Of a stretch of DNA of 64,000 nucleotides, positions 16,648 to 21,938 are shown in pieces. The stretch spans positions 40,192 through 104,191 of the forward strand of contig CAMPEU010000001.1 in the NCBI GenBank assembly GCA_946804195.1, read 5' to 3'. The notes under the pieces are model-generated. The model was not told where the DNA came from. It saw nothing but the letters and a program-made list of their open reading frames with translations, and made no database searches. This DNA comes from an uncultured Candidatus Saccharibacteria bacterium. GTDB lineage: Bacteria > Patescibacteriota > Saccharimonadia > Saccharimonadales > Saccharimonadaceae. Made by a program: the position numbers and the translations under genes. Within the stretch, counting starts at the first letter, position 1, and each line of letters opens with the position of its first letter.

Positions 16648-17088
16648 TTAAGAAACCTTCTGTGGCGCCTTCAGATGCATCTCACGCGCCTTGTTTGCCC
16701 ATTCGTCGGCCATTTCATTACCTTCGTCACCCTCGTGCCCACGAACCCAGTTGAGTACTGCATTCGAGCGGCCATATAACGGGTACACGGACTGTACGAT
16801 GTCGAGGTTTTTTATCTCGCCACCTTTCTTTTTCCAGCCTTTTGCCTCCCAGCCAACCGCCCACTTGGTGATCACATTGATCCAAAATTCACTGTCTGTA
16901 TAAATTTCACACGCCTCACCATCTGCATCTTCAAGCGCCGCTTTGATCGCCAAGCCTTCCATGCGAATATTAGTCGTTTCAGGTACATCTTCTCCACCGA
17001 CAATATATGGCTTATTATCACGAATTACCGAAAAACCACCCGGACCAGGATTTGGACTTGCGCTACCGTCTGTATAGTAAACAATCAT
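16648..17088 (-). CDS. rnhA: Ribonuclease HI
   Basis: YTDGSASPNPGPGGF, RMEGLAIKAAL, IYTDSEF, RGHEGDEGNEMADEWAN: catalytic acidic residues present; overlaps the next gene by 4 nt. Confidence 0.88.
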   Translation of the reverse strand: MIVYYTDGSASPNPGPGGFSVIRDNKPYIVGGEDVPETTNIRMEGLAIKAALEDADGEACEIYTDSEFWINVITKWAVGWEAKGWKKKGGEIKNLDIVQSVYPLYGRSNAVLNWVRGHEGDEGNEMADEWANKAREMHLKAPQKVS

Positions 17089-18557
17089 TCTTTGATTATA
17101 TCATTCACTTTGATGTACTCGGTTTCAATTGCGCCATCAAACGGATCCAATACAGTTATTCTATTATGCTTGTTGTCTAAATCCTCATAGGTATACCAAG
17201 ACTTCCAGTATGCTGAATGACTTAAAATCTCCCTACCGCGCCTATACGCTCGTGTTGTTTTAGGAGGATTAACTATTCTGTCTTCCACACTACCCAGCTG
17301 ATTCATATCATCAGCGAAATATTTACGTCGTATCCTACCCGCAGGGCTATTCGCAATTAATTCATCGGTCGTAGCATCACTTTGCGCTTGTTCCTTTGTA
17401 ATCCACAAAGATGATGTATATCGCAAATCCCGCAGTCTACTCACGGCATCCAATGATTTCTTTTTTCTTTTATCTCTGTCCTCATACAAAAGTCGTCGTT
17501 TCAATATCGCATCGCTTTTCTCTAACTCGTCAGGATTACGCTTCATCACCGCATGCGCAATCTTCCATTCCTGCAATATTTTGTCCTGTTCGGACGTTCT
17601 ACCTGTCGTCTGATCTACCCTATTAATAATCTCTTCTTGAATGTCCTGAGCTTTACTTGCACCTTTCATACCCTCTAGATAATATTTTTCTTTGAACTTC
17701 ATATCGAATGTCGCACGTTGCATTGCCCTTGCCGCTACATCTGGACCATCGCTTTCAAACACCATGCCATCCATACGACCTTCCCGCGCAGCTAACAAAA
17801 CCAACGAAGCAGTGCCCATAAACATTTTTGATGCCCACGGAGACACATGCGGATCACCGCCAACCAAATGCAAGCGCCAATATTTTTCCGCACTCGCATA
17901 AGGCTTATCTCTCAAATTCACGATGGGCTTGCCGATATCCGACGTTGTTCCCGTACCATAATCCTCGTTAATCGGTGTTAGCACTTTTTGGCCCCAACTA
18001 TAAACATACTCACCATACCCATTCATGGACACGGCTCCCCCGCCCAGCATTGGCAGGCTCGTTGCTAGATGCGTCAGCAGTGGTCTTGTCCTTATCTTGA
18101 TATCCGCGGTGTCACGAAGCCATGTTCGATCTTCCCCGATATTCGAGTGATACCCCCACGTCGTGTGATGTGCGCCATCAACACGTTTACACAAAAAGCC
18201 CTCGCGCACATCATGCGTCGAAGCGATATGCTTGCGCAAGCCTTCTATGACTATTCTTTCACCGGCCAACTCGGAGAGCACGACGCTCTCGATCGATACA
18301 TCTTCTGGTGTCGCATATTCAAACCGGCCACAATCGTTATAGTATCGAGCTCCGTTACTCAAGTAATTCTCGTAGCTAGCCGATAGCCAGCTGAGTGTGC
18401 CTACGACACCTTCGGGTAACGCATCAACAAGAAACTGATCAAGATAGTTAGAAATTGACAATGATTCAAAATCAGTGGGATTAGTACTTCTACGTACTGA
18501 AATTGGCCATTCCATTTCAGTACCAAAAATCTGTCGAAATGAATCACGCTCAGTCAC
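17085..18557 (-). CDS. PafA/Dop-family protein (Pup ligase / Pup deamidase-depupylase superfamily)
   Basis: IFGTEMEWPI (cf. GxExE), NGARYYNDCGRFEYATPE (cf. NGARxYxDxxHPEYxTPE), TTSDIGKPIVNLRDKPYASAEKYWRLHLVGGDPHVSPWASKMFMGTASLVL (cf. RPIxNTRDEPHADAExxRRLHVIxGDxNMSE). Confidence 0.85.
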   Translation of the reverse strand: MTERDSFRQIFGTEMEWPISVRRSTNPTDFESLSISNYLDQFLVDALPEGVVGTLSWLSASYENYLSNGARYYNDCGRFEYATPEDVSIESVVLSELAGERIVIEGLRKHIASTHDVREGFLCKRVDGAHHTTWGYHSNIGEDRTWLRDTADIKIRTRPLLTHLATSLPMLGGGAVSMNGYGEYVYSWGQKVLTPINEDYGTGTTSDIGKPIVNLRDKPYASAEKYWRLHLVGGDPHVSPWASKMFMGTASLVLLAAREGRMDGMVFESDGPDVAARAMQRATFDMKFKEKYYLEGMKGASKAQDIQEEIINRVDQTTGRTSEQDKILQEWKIAHAVMKRNPDELEKSDAILKRRLLYEDRDKRKKKSLDAVSRLRDLRYTSSLWITKEQAQSDATTDELIANSPAGRIRRKYFADDMNQLGSVEDRIVNPPKTTRAYRRGREILSHSAYWKSWYTYEDLDNKHNRITVLDPFDGAIETEYIKVNDIIKE

Positions 18558-18572
18558 TCCAATGTACCTCTA

Positions 18573-18713
18573 TTAACATGGACCTATTCTACCCGGCATA
18601 GCCAACAAACTCAAACAATAATCAACCGCCTGTTTTAACTTATCTATATCCACCCCTGTACTAACAGCATAAAACCGAGTATAATCTACGGTTAGTTCAT
18701 ATGAAGATAACAC
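18573..18713 (-). CDS. Candidate micro-ORF (46 aa) just upstream of the PafA/Dop-family gene
   Basis: Read directly: GTG start, MLSSYELTVDYTRFYAVSTGVDIDKLKQAVDYCLSLLAMPGRIGPC*; below ORF-track length cut-off; no clear SD. Confidence 0.25.
   Translation of the reverse strand: MLSSYELTVDYTRFYAVSTGVDIDKLKQAVDYCLSLLAMPGRIGPC
18680..18685 (+). promoter_or_regulatory. -10 element (TATAAT) 15 nt before the CofE-like ATG
   Basis: ccgagTATAATctacggttagttcatATG; implies a near-leaderless transcript, no SD visible. Confidence 0.45.
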
Positions 18714-19459
18714 CAGTCAAAACACAGCGTATCGAACCAAGCGCGCTCTCCCTCACCGAACTTCTCGATCGAGTAGTTACTTCACTGTCAGAAAAATCCA
18801 TTGTCGTCATCACCTCAAAAATTGTTTCACTCTGCGAAGGTTCCGTACTGCCAGTTGATGATATTGATCGCGATGAACTCATTGCGCAGCAATCGGATCT
18901 ATATTTGCCACCTCGATACAGCGTACAGGGTCATCATTTTACAATCAAAAATAATACACTCATCGCCACTGCTGGTATCGACCAGTCAAATGGTGATGGC
19001 CAGTATATTTTGTGGCCGCGTGATTCATGGAAAACAGCACGCGAAATTCGAGATTACCTATGTAAGAAATTTGAGCTAAACGATATTGGCGTACTTATTA
19101 CGGATAGTACTTGCGGCGTTCTGCGTCGTGGCACAACAGGAATTGCGCTCGGATATAGTGGATTCATTGGACTAAAAAATTACATCGGTAAACCCGATTT
19201 ATTCGGACGTCCATTCCATGTCACAAATGCAAATATCGCAGAAGGTCTATCGGCATCCGCAGTTGTTGTCATGGGAGAAGGCGCCGAAAGTACTCCGATT
19301 GCCATTATCACGGAATGTGAATCGCATGTAATCTTCTCTGCAAAAAGCCCAACTGATGATGAAAAATTCGAGTGGAACATTCCGTTTGATGAAGATTTAT
19401 TCTCGCCATTCCTAAGTGCGCTCGAGTGGCAAAAAGGTGGCGCCCATGATAAAGAATGA
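18701..19459 (+). CDS. CofE-like F420-0:gamma-glutamyl ligase family protein
   Basis: IVVITSKIVSLCEGSVLP, DSTCGVLRRGTTGIALGYSGFIGLKNYIGKPDLFGRPFHVTNANIAEGLSASAVVVMGEG. Confidence 0.82.
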   Translation: MKITPVKTQRIEPSALSLTELLDRVVTSLSEKSIVVITSKIVSLCEGSVLPVDDIDRDELIAQQSDLYLPPRYSVQGHHFTIKNNTLIATAGIDQSNGDGQYILWPRDSWKTAREIRDYLCKKFELNDIGVLITDSTCGVLRRGTTGIALGYSGFIGLKNYIGKPDLFGRPFHVTNANIAEGLSASAVVVMGEGAESTPIAIITECESHVIFSAKSPTDDEKFEWNIPFDEDLFSPFLSALEWQKGGAHDKE

Positions 19460-19952
19460 AGTTTTATCACACTACATCAATCCGGATTTTGTCTACCGAT
19501 TTAATCATGGACCCAACGTCATTAAATCGCGCGAGCAGGCATTGCGCGAAGGTCTCAACTGTGAAGCACTCGCGCATCTTGCACTGCGTGACCTAACCAA
19601 TGTTGCATTACCGTCAGACCTCCGTTGCTACGAGATGTATAATGACACCGAATACTTTCGCAAGATTGAAACATCCGAAACACTTCAGGAAGGTGACTTA
19701 TTTTGGTTTGGTCAAAATCGCAATATGAGACCTGTTGATTTTCAGCCTCTATTCAATAAAGGCGAACTAACAAATTGGGATGAATATCCTGTTAAACATA
19801 TGGCGTTATTCACAGGAGAGCACGCACACGATGGTAACCCACTACTGCTGCACGCAACATATGTCACCGGCACAAACAGCGTCTGGTCATTACCAGAGTT
19901 CAACAAATACCCTCAATCAAAAAAGCTCTACGGCGTTACGCGACTCAAATAA
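19446..19952 (+). CDS. Cytoplasmic NlpC/P60-like cysteine hydrolase
   Basis: Order Cys-His-His: GLNCEALAHLAL, EGDLFWFG, VKHMALFTGE, LLLHATYVTG; no signal peptide; start re-chosen at ATG 19446, overlapping the CofE-like stop by 14 nt. Confidence 0.65.
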   Translation: MIKNEVLSHYINPDFVYRFNHGPNVIKSREQALREGLNCEALAHLALRDLTNVALPSDLRCYEMYNDTEYFRKIETSETLQEGDLFWFGQNRNMRPVDFQPLFNKGELTNWDEYPVKHMALFTGEHAHDGNPLLLHATYVTGTNSVWSLPEFNKYPQSKKLYGVTRLK

Positions 19953-20684
19953 TTATTCGAGGTCTCCTTCAGACTCTTTTTGCATACGTCTCAAATATCG
20001 TCGAATCGACTTTGCGTGAGGATTCTGAGTCACGGAATGCAAAGGAGATGCCGCGGTTACTGTATCGGGGAAATCATCAGTGCATGCAGGAACATTATCA
20101 CCCAACAAATACTTTCTGATCATCGCTTCAGCAACACGTCGTACGCCATCAGCAAGCCGACGAGGACCATGATGCTCTGGTAGTAATAAGCTATAGATGC
20201 CCGCACGATTCGCAGCTACCACATCGGTCAATATACTGTCACCCACCATCAAAACTCGCTCTGTCGGTAAGCGTTTTTTCTTGATAACAAAATCGATCAT
20301 AGCAGGCAGTGATTGAACCTCTGGACGCACTAAGGCAGACTCTACTTCCAAAATATCAGGACAGATCACGTCAATATCTAACGCTTCGTCCCGCACGACT
20401 CCCTCAAGTTCATCCTGCCGCCTATCACCTTCTTCATTCAATAGATATAAATCCAGACCTATCAGTGACATCCGGCGCATATTGTCGCAAACCTTATCAT
20501 GATCAATTTCACTACATCCAGGAACGAGTGCTGTCCTGGAATCAAATAGCACCGTATCAAAATCTTCTAGCGCCAAACCCTCTCGAAAAACAGCCGGAGT
20601 TATCAACTCCACGCTACTAGCAATGTATGTTGGCTGCCAGTTTTCAAGACACTGTTTCACAACCTCATTATGCTCCCGTACCAA
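19953..20684 (-). CDS. YqeG-like HAD-family protein with degenerate motif I
   Basis: VLMVGDSILTDVVAANRAGIYSLLL is canonical; motif I is FDSRTALVPG instead of DxDxT. Confidence 0.65.
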   Translation of the reverse strand: MVREHNEVVKQCLENWQPTYIASSVELITPAVFREGLALEDFDTVLFDSRTALVPGCSEIDHDKVCDNMRRMSLIGLDLYLLNEEGDRRQDELEGVVRDEALDIDVICPDILEVESALVRPEVQSLPAMIDFVIKKKRLPTERVLMVGDSILTDVVAANRAGIYSLLLPEHHGPRRLADGVRRVAEAMIRKYLLGDNVPACTDDFPDTVTAASPLHSVTQNPHAKSIRRYLRRMQKESEGDLE

Positions 20685-21050: not shown

Positions 21051-21938
21051 CTATACTTTTGGAAATTCAACAACCGTGTCCAGAACGCGAGTACCAAATC
21101 CCTTTAACTCAAAACGATCTTCATACACATCAACCAGACCATAGGCATTTGTTTCACCACTCAACATACCGGGTAGCGTAATGTATATCACCCCTTCACG
21201 CGTTAGACCATACGCCCCGCCGTGATTATGCCCATTCATAAATACCCGAACATTGTCATGTCTGTTTATAACATCCATAATTTCATTACTATTTAGCGCA
21301 GTTAGTGCATTATGAGGAAACAGCTGATGATGCGACATCGGTATCGCTACCTGATCATGTTTTTCGGCATCGGTTAGTTCGTTATCAAACCATTCCAACT
21401 GCTCATCGCTCATTCCACCATTCCACATGTACGCGTTAGTCGCACCTTTATGCCGCATCCGTTCTATCAATTCATATCCCGCTATCCATTCCGGGCTGCC
21501 CTCTGGGTGCTCGAGTGGGCCCAGTTCATTCGTATCCAGCATAACCAGCCTACTCTTGCCCTTTTGCAAAGAATAATAATTATGTGGCATATCTAGTAGT
21601 TGCAGCACTTTTTTGAGCGTTGCTCGTTTATCCATAAATTCATGATTACCAATCAAATGCGCCACCCGGACGCCAACTCCGCCCAAAATACGATTCAACG
21701 CATGTGCGTCATTCATATCACGATCATAAAAATCGCCCAGATGCACAATATAATCCAAGCCTCTTTCATTATTGTATGCAGTAAACGTATCTGCCGCTTG
21801 TTGTAACTTTTGTGCAGACATTCTATAGCAATTCTGGAAGTGTAAATCCGTTGTGCCTAGTATTACGCCCGAGAAATCATCAACATCAGCCGCCTGACAA
21901 TCCGCTACAACACCAAAAGACACCTCGGGACTCTTCAT
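21051..21938 (-). CDS. Calcineurin-like metallophosphoesterase
   Basis: HLGDFYDRD, LIGNHEFMD, PMSHHQLF, FMNGHNHGG motifs. Confidence 0.85.
   Translation of the reverse strand: MKSPEVSFGVVADCQAADVDDFSGVILGTTDLHFQNCYRMSAQKLQQAADTFTAYNNERGLDYIVHLGDFYDRDMNDAHALNRILGGVGVRVAHLIGNHEFMDKRATLKKVLQLLDMPHNYYSLQKGKSRLVMLDTNELGPLEHPEGSPEWIAGYELIERMRHKGATNAYMWNGGMSDEQLEWFDNELTDAEKHDQVAIPMSHHQLFPHNALTALNSNEIMDVINRHDNVRVFMNGHNHGGAYGLTREGVIYITLPGMLSGETNAYGLVDVYEDRFELKGFGTRVLDTVVEFPKV

Follow-up and report, generated by a model that had tools for sequence, protein, structure and literature searches.

The Locus and Its Gene Order

The window, by which we mean the whole 64,000-nucleotide stretch of Saccharibacteria DNA that was analyzed, encodes on its minus strand (17085..18557) a PafA/Dop-family enzyme of 490 amino acids with a GTG start, recognized by its ORF, a PF03136 match, a residue table and a structure model. 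The reading frame is intact over all 490 codons, and its stop overlaps the start codon of an RNase HI gene (16648..17088, minus strand; PF00075 and synteny) by 4 bp, as in a coupled operon. The RNase HI neighbor is kept in the relatives G009 and G003.

On the other side of the enzyme gene, positions 18558..19952 correspond by synteny to the slot that holds Pup in G009, and they contain no Pup-like frame. The slot is occupied by two features on the plus strand. One is a gene for a CofE-like gamma-glutamyl ligase (18701..19459; PF01996, E = 5e-32; TIGR04132, 255.8 bits, cut-off 350), which is divergent to the enzyme gene and shares with it a promoter region of 143 bp. The other is a 178-aa ORF (19416..19952; ATG at 19449) with at best a sub-threshold NlpC/P60 resemblance (Pfam E-value only 0.17) and no match in the PDB. 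Beyond the slot lie, on the minus strand, a HAD-family phosphatase gene (19953..20684; Pfam and synteny), whose counterparts in G009 and G008 immediately precede pup, and a metallophosphoesterase gene (21051..21938), part of a neighborhood conserved in G002, G008, and G009.

The gene order in G009 is HAD phosphatase, Pup, enzyme and RNase HI. The window has the same order, except that Pup is replaced by the CofE-like gene and the 178-aa ORF on the opposite strand. In G008, a Pup gene is present in the same slot, but it accompanies an enzyme of a different clade, and the slot therefore appears to exchange cassettes. Six-frame reading of positions 18501-18760, which include the 143-bp intergenic region, gave no Pup-like frame, and a scan of the entire window for Pup tails was likewise negative; a concealed Pup gene was rejected on these grounds. 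This whole-window scan bears out the sequence-only reading, which had seen no Pup gene in the window.

Fold and Active Site of the Enzyme

PF03136 (Pup_ligase) is the single Pfam family matched by the enzyme (E = 1.9e-39; 136.3 bits, cut-off 25), with residues 10-446 covering profile positions 2-427 of 441. Against PDB sequences, Dop (72.5 bits) was nearer than PafA (33.7 bits). A structure model was built from a 12-row alignment (mean pLDDT 79.6, pTM 0.85) and compared with known structures by VIA-align. The best full-length match was the depupylase/deamidase Dop (7oyh, 4b0r), with a Z-score of 42.6 over 426 residues at 3.0 A for 7oyh; the Pup ligase PafA (4bjr, 4b0t) matched with Z 37.1 for 4bjr. 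The next structural families were YbdK (Z 20.3), GCS (Z ∼16) and GS (Z ∼15). Profile and fold thus agree with the proposed membership in the PafA/Dop family. Assignment to another carboxylate-amine ligase family of the GCS/GS kind is ruled out by fold, with Z-scores of 15-20 versus 37-43 for PafA and Dop.

Fifteen active-site positions were scored against five actinobacterial PafA/Dop sequences, and 14 of them are identical in the alignment. Retained are the equivalents of Dop E8, E10, R90, Y92, D94, E99, E103, H155, N157, R227, D228, R239, H241, and D246; the sole change is a Tyr at the position of Dop H231. In the numbering of the window enzyme, the key residues are E14, E16, D75, E80, E85, R216 (R227 in Dop), and H230 (H241 in Dop), with D75 as the catalytic Asp and the Glu pair of the GTExE motif kept. 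The motifs that had been read as preserved (GTEMEW, NGARYYNDCGRFEYATPE, and PIVNLRDKPYASAEKYWRLHLVGGD) are all present. In Dop, R227 and H241 hold the phosphate (PMC8599861). Because the catalytic residues are preserved, the enzyme is likely to be active. The His of the canonical HPEY motif is indeed replaced (RFEY), but the suggestion that this signals specialization is weakened, since the loss is common among relatives, several Pup-linked ones included, and is therefore no special mark.

The Dop-loop was defined as 40-65 residues before strand 2. The spacer between ExE and NGAR is 54 residues long in the window enzyme, compared with 79-83 residues for Dop and 41 for PafA, and by this comparison the loop is absent. 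The enzyme is nearer to Dop in fold and sequence, yet lacks the Dop-loop in the manner of PafA.

A Pup-Linked Lineage Distinct From PafA and Dop

Neither curated equivalog profile (NCBIfam) recognizes the enzyme. It scored 95.3 bits for PafA (TIGR03686, cut-off 551.3) and 94.9 bits for Dop (TIGR03688, cut-off 492.3), nearly equal values that are both far below the cut-offs. A maximum-likelihood tree of 46 sequences was calculated, provisionally rooted as it holds no Planctomycetes or UBact-linked references, and a FastTree run was made for comparison. Actinobacterial PafA and Dop, joined by two members of the class Saccharimonadia (G139 and G141), formed a clade of their own (100%), and the window enzyme fell outside it. 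With this sampling, most Saccharimonadia enzymes are therefore placed outside the split between PafA and Dop.

Judged by score and tree, the window enzyme is an ortholog of neither PafA nor Dop. With Dop it shares the closest fold, the catalytic Asp, and the phosphate-binding Arg and His, but it lacks the Dop-loop, scores under the TIGR03688 cut-off and stands outside the Dop clade. With PafA it has in common the fold, the active site and the missing loop, but it scores under the TIGR03686 cut-off, branches outside the PafA clade and has the longer spacer (54 versus 41). A plain PafA and a plain Dop are both ruled out by the combination of curated cut-offs, tree and missing Dop-loop.

Within the tree, the window enzyme paired with that of G009 (98%), and this pair joined the group G199/(G001,G007) at 100%; FastTree agreed on both groupings (0.92 and 0.997). 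In all four other members of this clade (4/4), the enzyme gene lies directly downstream of pup. The window enzyme descends from Pup-linked enzymes, and because its close relatives encode a real Pup beside the same enzyme, the window copy appears to be orphaned. It does not visibly decay, since its branch is shorter than that of the Pup-linked G009 enzyme (1.04 versus 1.83) and it deviates at few conserved positions (5/37, versus 7/36 for G009).

Absence of Pup, ARC/Mpa and 20S Proteasome From the Assembly

The assembly that holds the window comprises 989 kb in 28 contigs and is 99.8% complete. It gave no Pup match with PF05639 (E ≤ 0.1), and none with a profile that we built from nine real Saccharimonadia Pups (E ≤ 1). 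Among 17 GGNGGNSARTRR sites genome-wide, only one terminates an ORF in GGE/GGQ, and this ORF encodes a pilin-like protein of 229 amino acids. A 20S proteasome was not found by profile search of the whole assembly, and there was no ARC/Mpa match over the cut-off. The lack of Pup and of Mpa/ARC and 20S genes that had been noted for the window therefore holds for the entire assembly, and a genome-wide search for a standard pup-prcBA-mpa locus found none. A divergent Pup or UBact-like tag, which the sequence-only reading had suggested might be encoded elsewhere, did not turn up either, although unlimited divergence or an assembly gap could hide one. The window enzyme should be compared not with UBact but with the Pup system that Saccharimonadia have without a proteasome.

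The same genome encodes a second PafA/Dop homologue (contig C19:1-1368, L035), which is cut by the contig start. It has lost the equivalents of Dop D94 (the catalytic Asp), E99 (the next conserved Glu), R227, and H241, and judging from these residues is very probably a pseudo-enzyme. At the contig ends read (all except the far ends of C25, C26, C27, and C28 and part of C23), there was no match to an N-terminal continuation of this homologue, to Pup or to glutaredoxin. Together with the relatives L047, L049, L050, L138, and L143, the C19 homologue forms a second PafA/Dop-like clade without Pup, in which neither NTRDEPH nor the RRLH His is present. Tandem copies from this clade occur in G002 and G003, and a glutaredoxin-like gene adjoins the clade's genes in some genomes.

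Pup and Its Enzyme Across Saccharimonadia

Of 392 Saccharimonadia genomes sampled, 42 (∼11%) encode a PF03136 protein. By our own tally, 38 homologue-bearing genomes are at least 90% complete; 12 of these have a detectable Pup and 26 have none, which makes the orphan state frequent. The Saccharimonadia Pups are acidic, have roughly 60-110 residues and end in QKGGE, QKGGQ or NGQ; one of them was checked against TIGR03687 and scored above the cut-off. Their genes often adjoin the enzyme gene. Exceptions are G057, with pup about 24 kb from the enzyme gene, and G078, G079, G093, and G332, with pup elsewhere.

None of the homologue-bearing Saccharimonadia genomes encodes a 20S pair. In G218 and G261, PF00227 gave weak matches, but these are to lone NTN-hydrolase-like ORFs and not to a prcA/prcB pair. 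In our searches, each Pup-bearing genome has a single PafA/Dop homologue, even though many of the Pups end in Gln. Such Pups would need deamidation, which suggests that the enzyme is bifunctional or that the amide is used directly.

Some Pup variants have a duplicated or extended acidic helix and end in NGQ or GGQ (G082, L046:7607-7879; G414, L128:5630-5965; G194, L130:6262-6519). They are convergent to an enzyme clade that lost the equivalents of Dop R227 and H241.

A canonical ARC/Mpa is encoded in three genomes that belong to the genus of the window organism (L069:4972-6717 in G002, L070:6008-7774 in G005, L071:6660-8351 in G003). These proteins score 755-803 bits for TIGR03689, are 62-68% identical to Tsukamurella ARC and end in GQYL, the tail that docks to 20S. 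Two of the three keep the ANGDK hairpin, which contacts 20S in Mycobacterium and is replaced in the proteasome-less Corynebacterium glutamicum (PMC8755798). A 20S proteasome was not found in these three genomes, which are only 69-87% complete.

Pup Genes in Viral Contigs

Pup-profile matches were also obtained on 24 viral contigs (L199-L222, IMG/VR), nearly all of them to a complete small Pup gene ending in GGE/GGQ. No PafA/Dop or ARC gene was found within 4 kb of these Pup genes. Inspected by eye, several have T4-like genes around them, with resemblance to UvsY and UvsW, or are adjacent to terminase- or portal-like genes. Six of the viral Pups were tested against PHROGs families, without a match, and the Pup of Streptomyces phage Dagobah is annotated as a "ubiquitin-like protein". 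An alignment search with the window enzyme detected no relatives in viral contigs. The entry MT835496.1 (L107, "Bacteriophage sp."), on which the genes for ARC, Dop, Pup, and PafA follow one another, was not accepted as a phage, as it looks like a misfiled fragment of an actinobacterial chromosome; it was used only as a PafA/Dop reference.

Interpretation of the Apparently Orphaned Enzyme

On balance, we lean toward a catalytically competent enzyme that was secondarily orphaned from a proteasome-free Pup system and that now uses a Glu- or Gln-ended partner, either supplied in trans or a substitute. Its ancestor would have been encoded directly downstream of pup and would have worked in a Pup system without proteasome, and pup would then have been lost from the window locus. 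Judging from the family, the enzyme would phosphorylate the side-chain carboxylate of a C-terminal Glu at the expense of ATP and then form an amide with a lysine, or it would work in the reverse direction, by removing the tag or deamidating a C-terminal Gln. Its partner would be a Pup-type tail provided in trans or a different protein. With neither ARC nor 20S, there would be no dedicated degradation route, and any effect would be non-degradative or would depend on other proteases.

The chief rival is an ordinary proteasome-free Pup system, with pup in an assembly gap or too divergent to be detected. The assembly consists of 28 contigs, one of which (C19) starts inside the second homologue without a continuation that could be found, contigs of G002 and G003 break at the syntenic locus, so that assemblies do fail there, and Pup is unlinked from the enzyme in some relatives, as described above for five genomes. 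We nevertheless regard a missed pup as unlikely, given the completeness of 99.8%, an intact window locus with Pup absent from the expected slot, and the failure of profiles that catch very divergent Pups (such as those of G082 and G414 ending in NGQ) to match anything here. In addition, C19-clade members are not Pup-adjacent in relatives. Alternatively, the enzyme could be a relic on its way to loss, which would fit the absence of Pup, ARC, and 20S and a second copy without active site. A relic is highly improbable: the frame is intact and extends into the start of RNase HI, all but one of the 15 active-site residues are kept, and the branch is shorter than that of the Pup-linked sister. A point against the favored reading is that an enzyme of a tag system that lacks the tag may be unused.

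Two further explanations assign the enzyme a different substrate. Actinobacteria, on which cultured Saccharibacteria live, in many cases have Pup. The Saccharimonadia might have a Pup-type system without a proteasome of their own, in which orphan enzymes act across cells, with an actinobacterial host supplying the tags or pupylated proteins or a phage bringing the Pup. Stand-alone Pup genes on phage contigs would suit this scheme, as would the ARC of the related G002, G003, and G005, with its 20S-docking GQYL tail and no 20S. Still, inspection by eye showed no export signal at the N-terminus of the enzyme, the window organism has no known host, and the phage Pups were not linked to Saccharimonadia phages; we consider action across cells improbable. 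A repurposed small-molecule gamma-glutamyl enzyme, partnered with the CofE-like ligase that replaced pup, appears similarly doubtful. The CofE-like gene sits in the Pup slot and shares the 143-bp divergent promoter region, and the superfamily includes GCS-type ligases, but divergent neighbors are weak evidence, a CofE neighbor occurs at no other locus compared, and the closest structures, those of Dop and PafA, belong to enzymes of protein tags.

Relation to Known Pup Systems

Most descriptions of pupylation concern Actinobacteria, in which the system targets proteins to the proteasome; elsewhere, cases are sporadic. Our literature search, which had most subscription journals outside its coverage, found pupylation described neither for Saccharibacteria nor for Patescibacteria. 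A precedent for pupylation without proteasome is known from C. glutamicum, which has Pup, PafA, Dop, and ARC, with a non-degradative role at ferritin (PMC12288473, PMC8223512). The shared feature is a Pup-family enzyme without 20S core subunits. In contrast to C. glutamicum, the genome of the window has neither Pup nor ARC, and its enzyme is not orthologous to PafA or to Dop; even the Pup-bearing Saccharimonadia relatives have, in our searches, a single enzyme instead of the PafA/Dop pair.

Pup systems that are not linked to proteasome genes have been reported for Plesiocystis and Rhodopirellula (PMC2588565), and sporadic PafA/Dop homologues in other phyla, single-copy in Planctomycetes (PMC7947786). 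These systems resemble the one described here in being unlinked from the proteasome and in having a single enzyme that falls in neither the PafA nor the Dop clade. They differ in that Plesiocystis and Rhodopirellula show linkage of the enzyme to Pup and to a membrane protein, a comparison made by description and not by sequence.

Genomes of ∼1 Mb in which Pup is retained with a single enzyme but without a proteasome suggest a function of the tag that is independent of degradation. As a lineage outside the PafA/Dop split, the Saccharimonadia enzymes are useful for asking which of the two activities came first, and the intact orphan in the window poses a concrete question, the role of a Pup enzyme without Pup.
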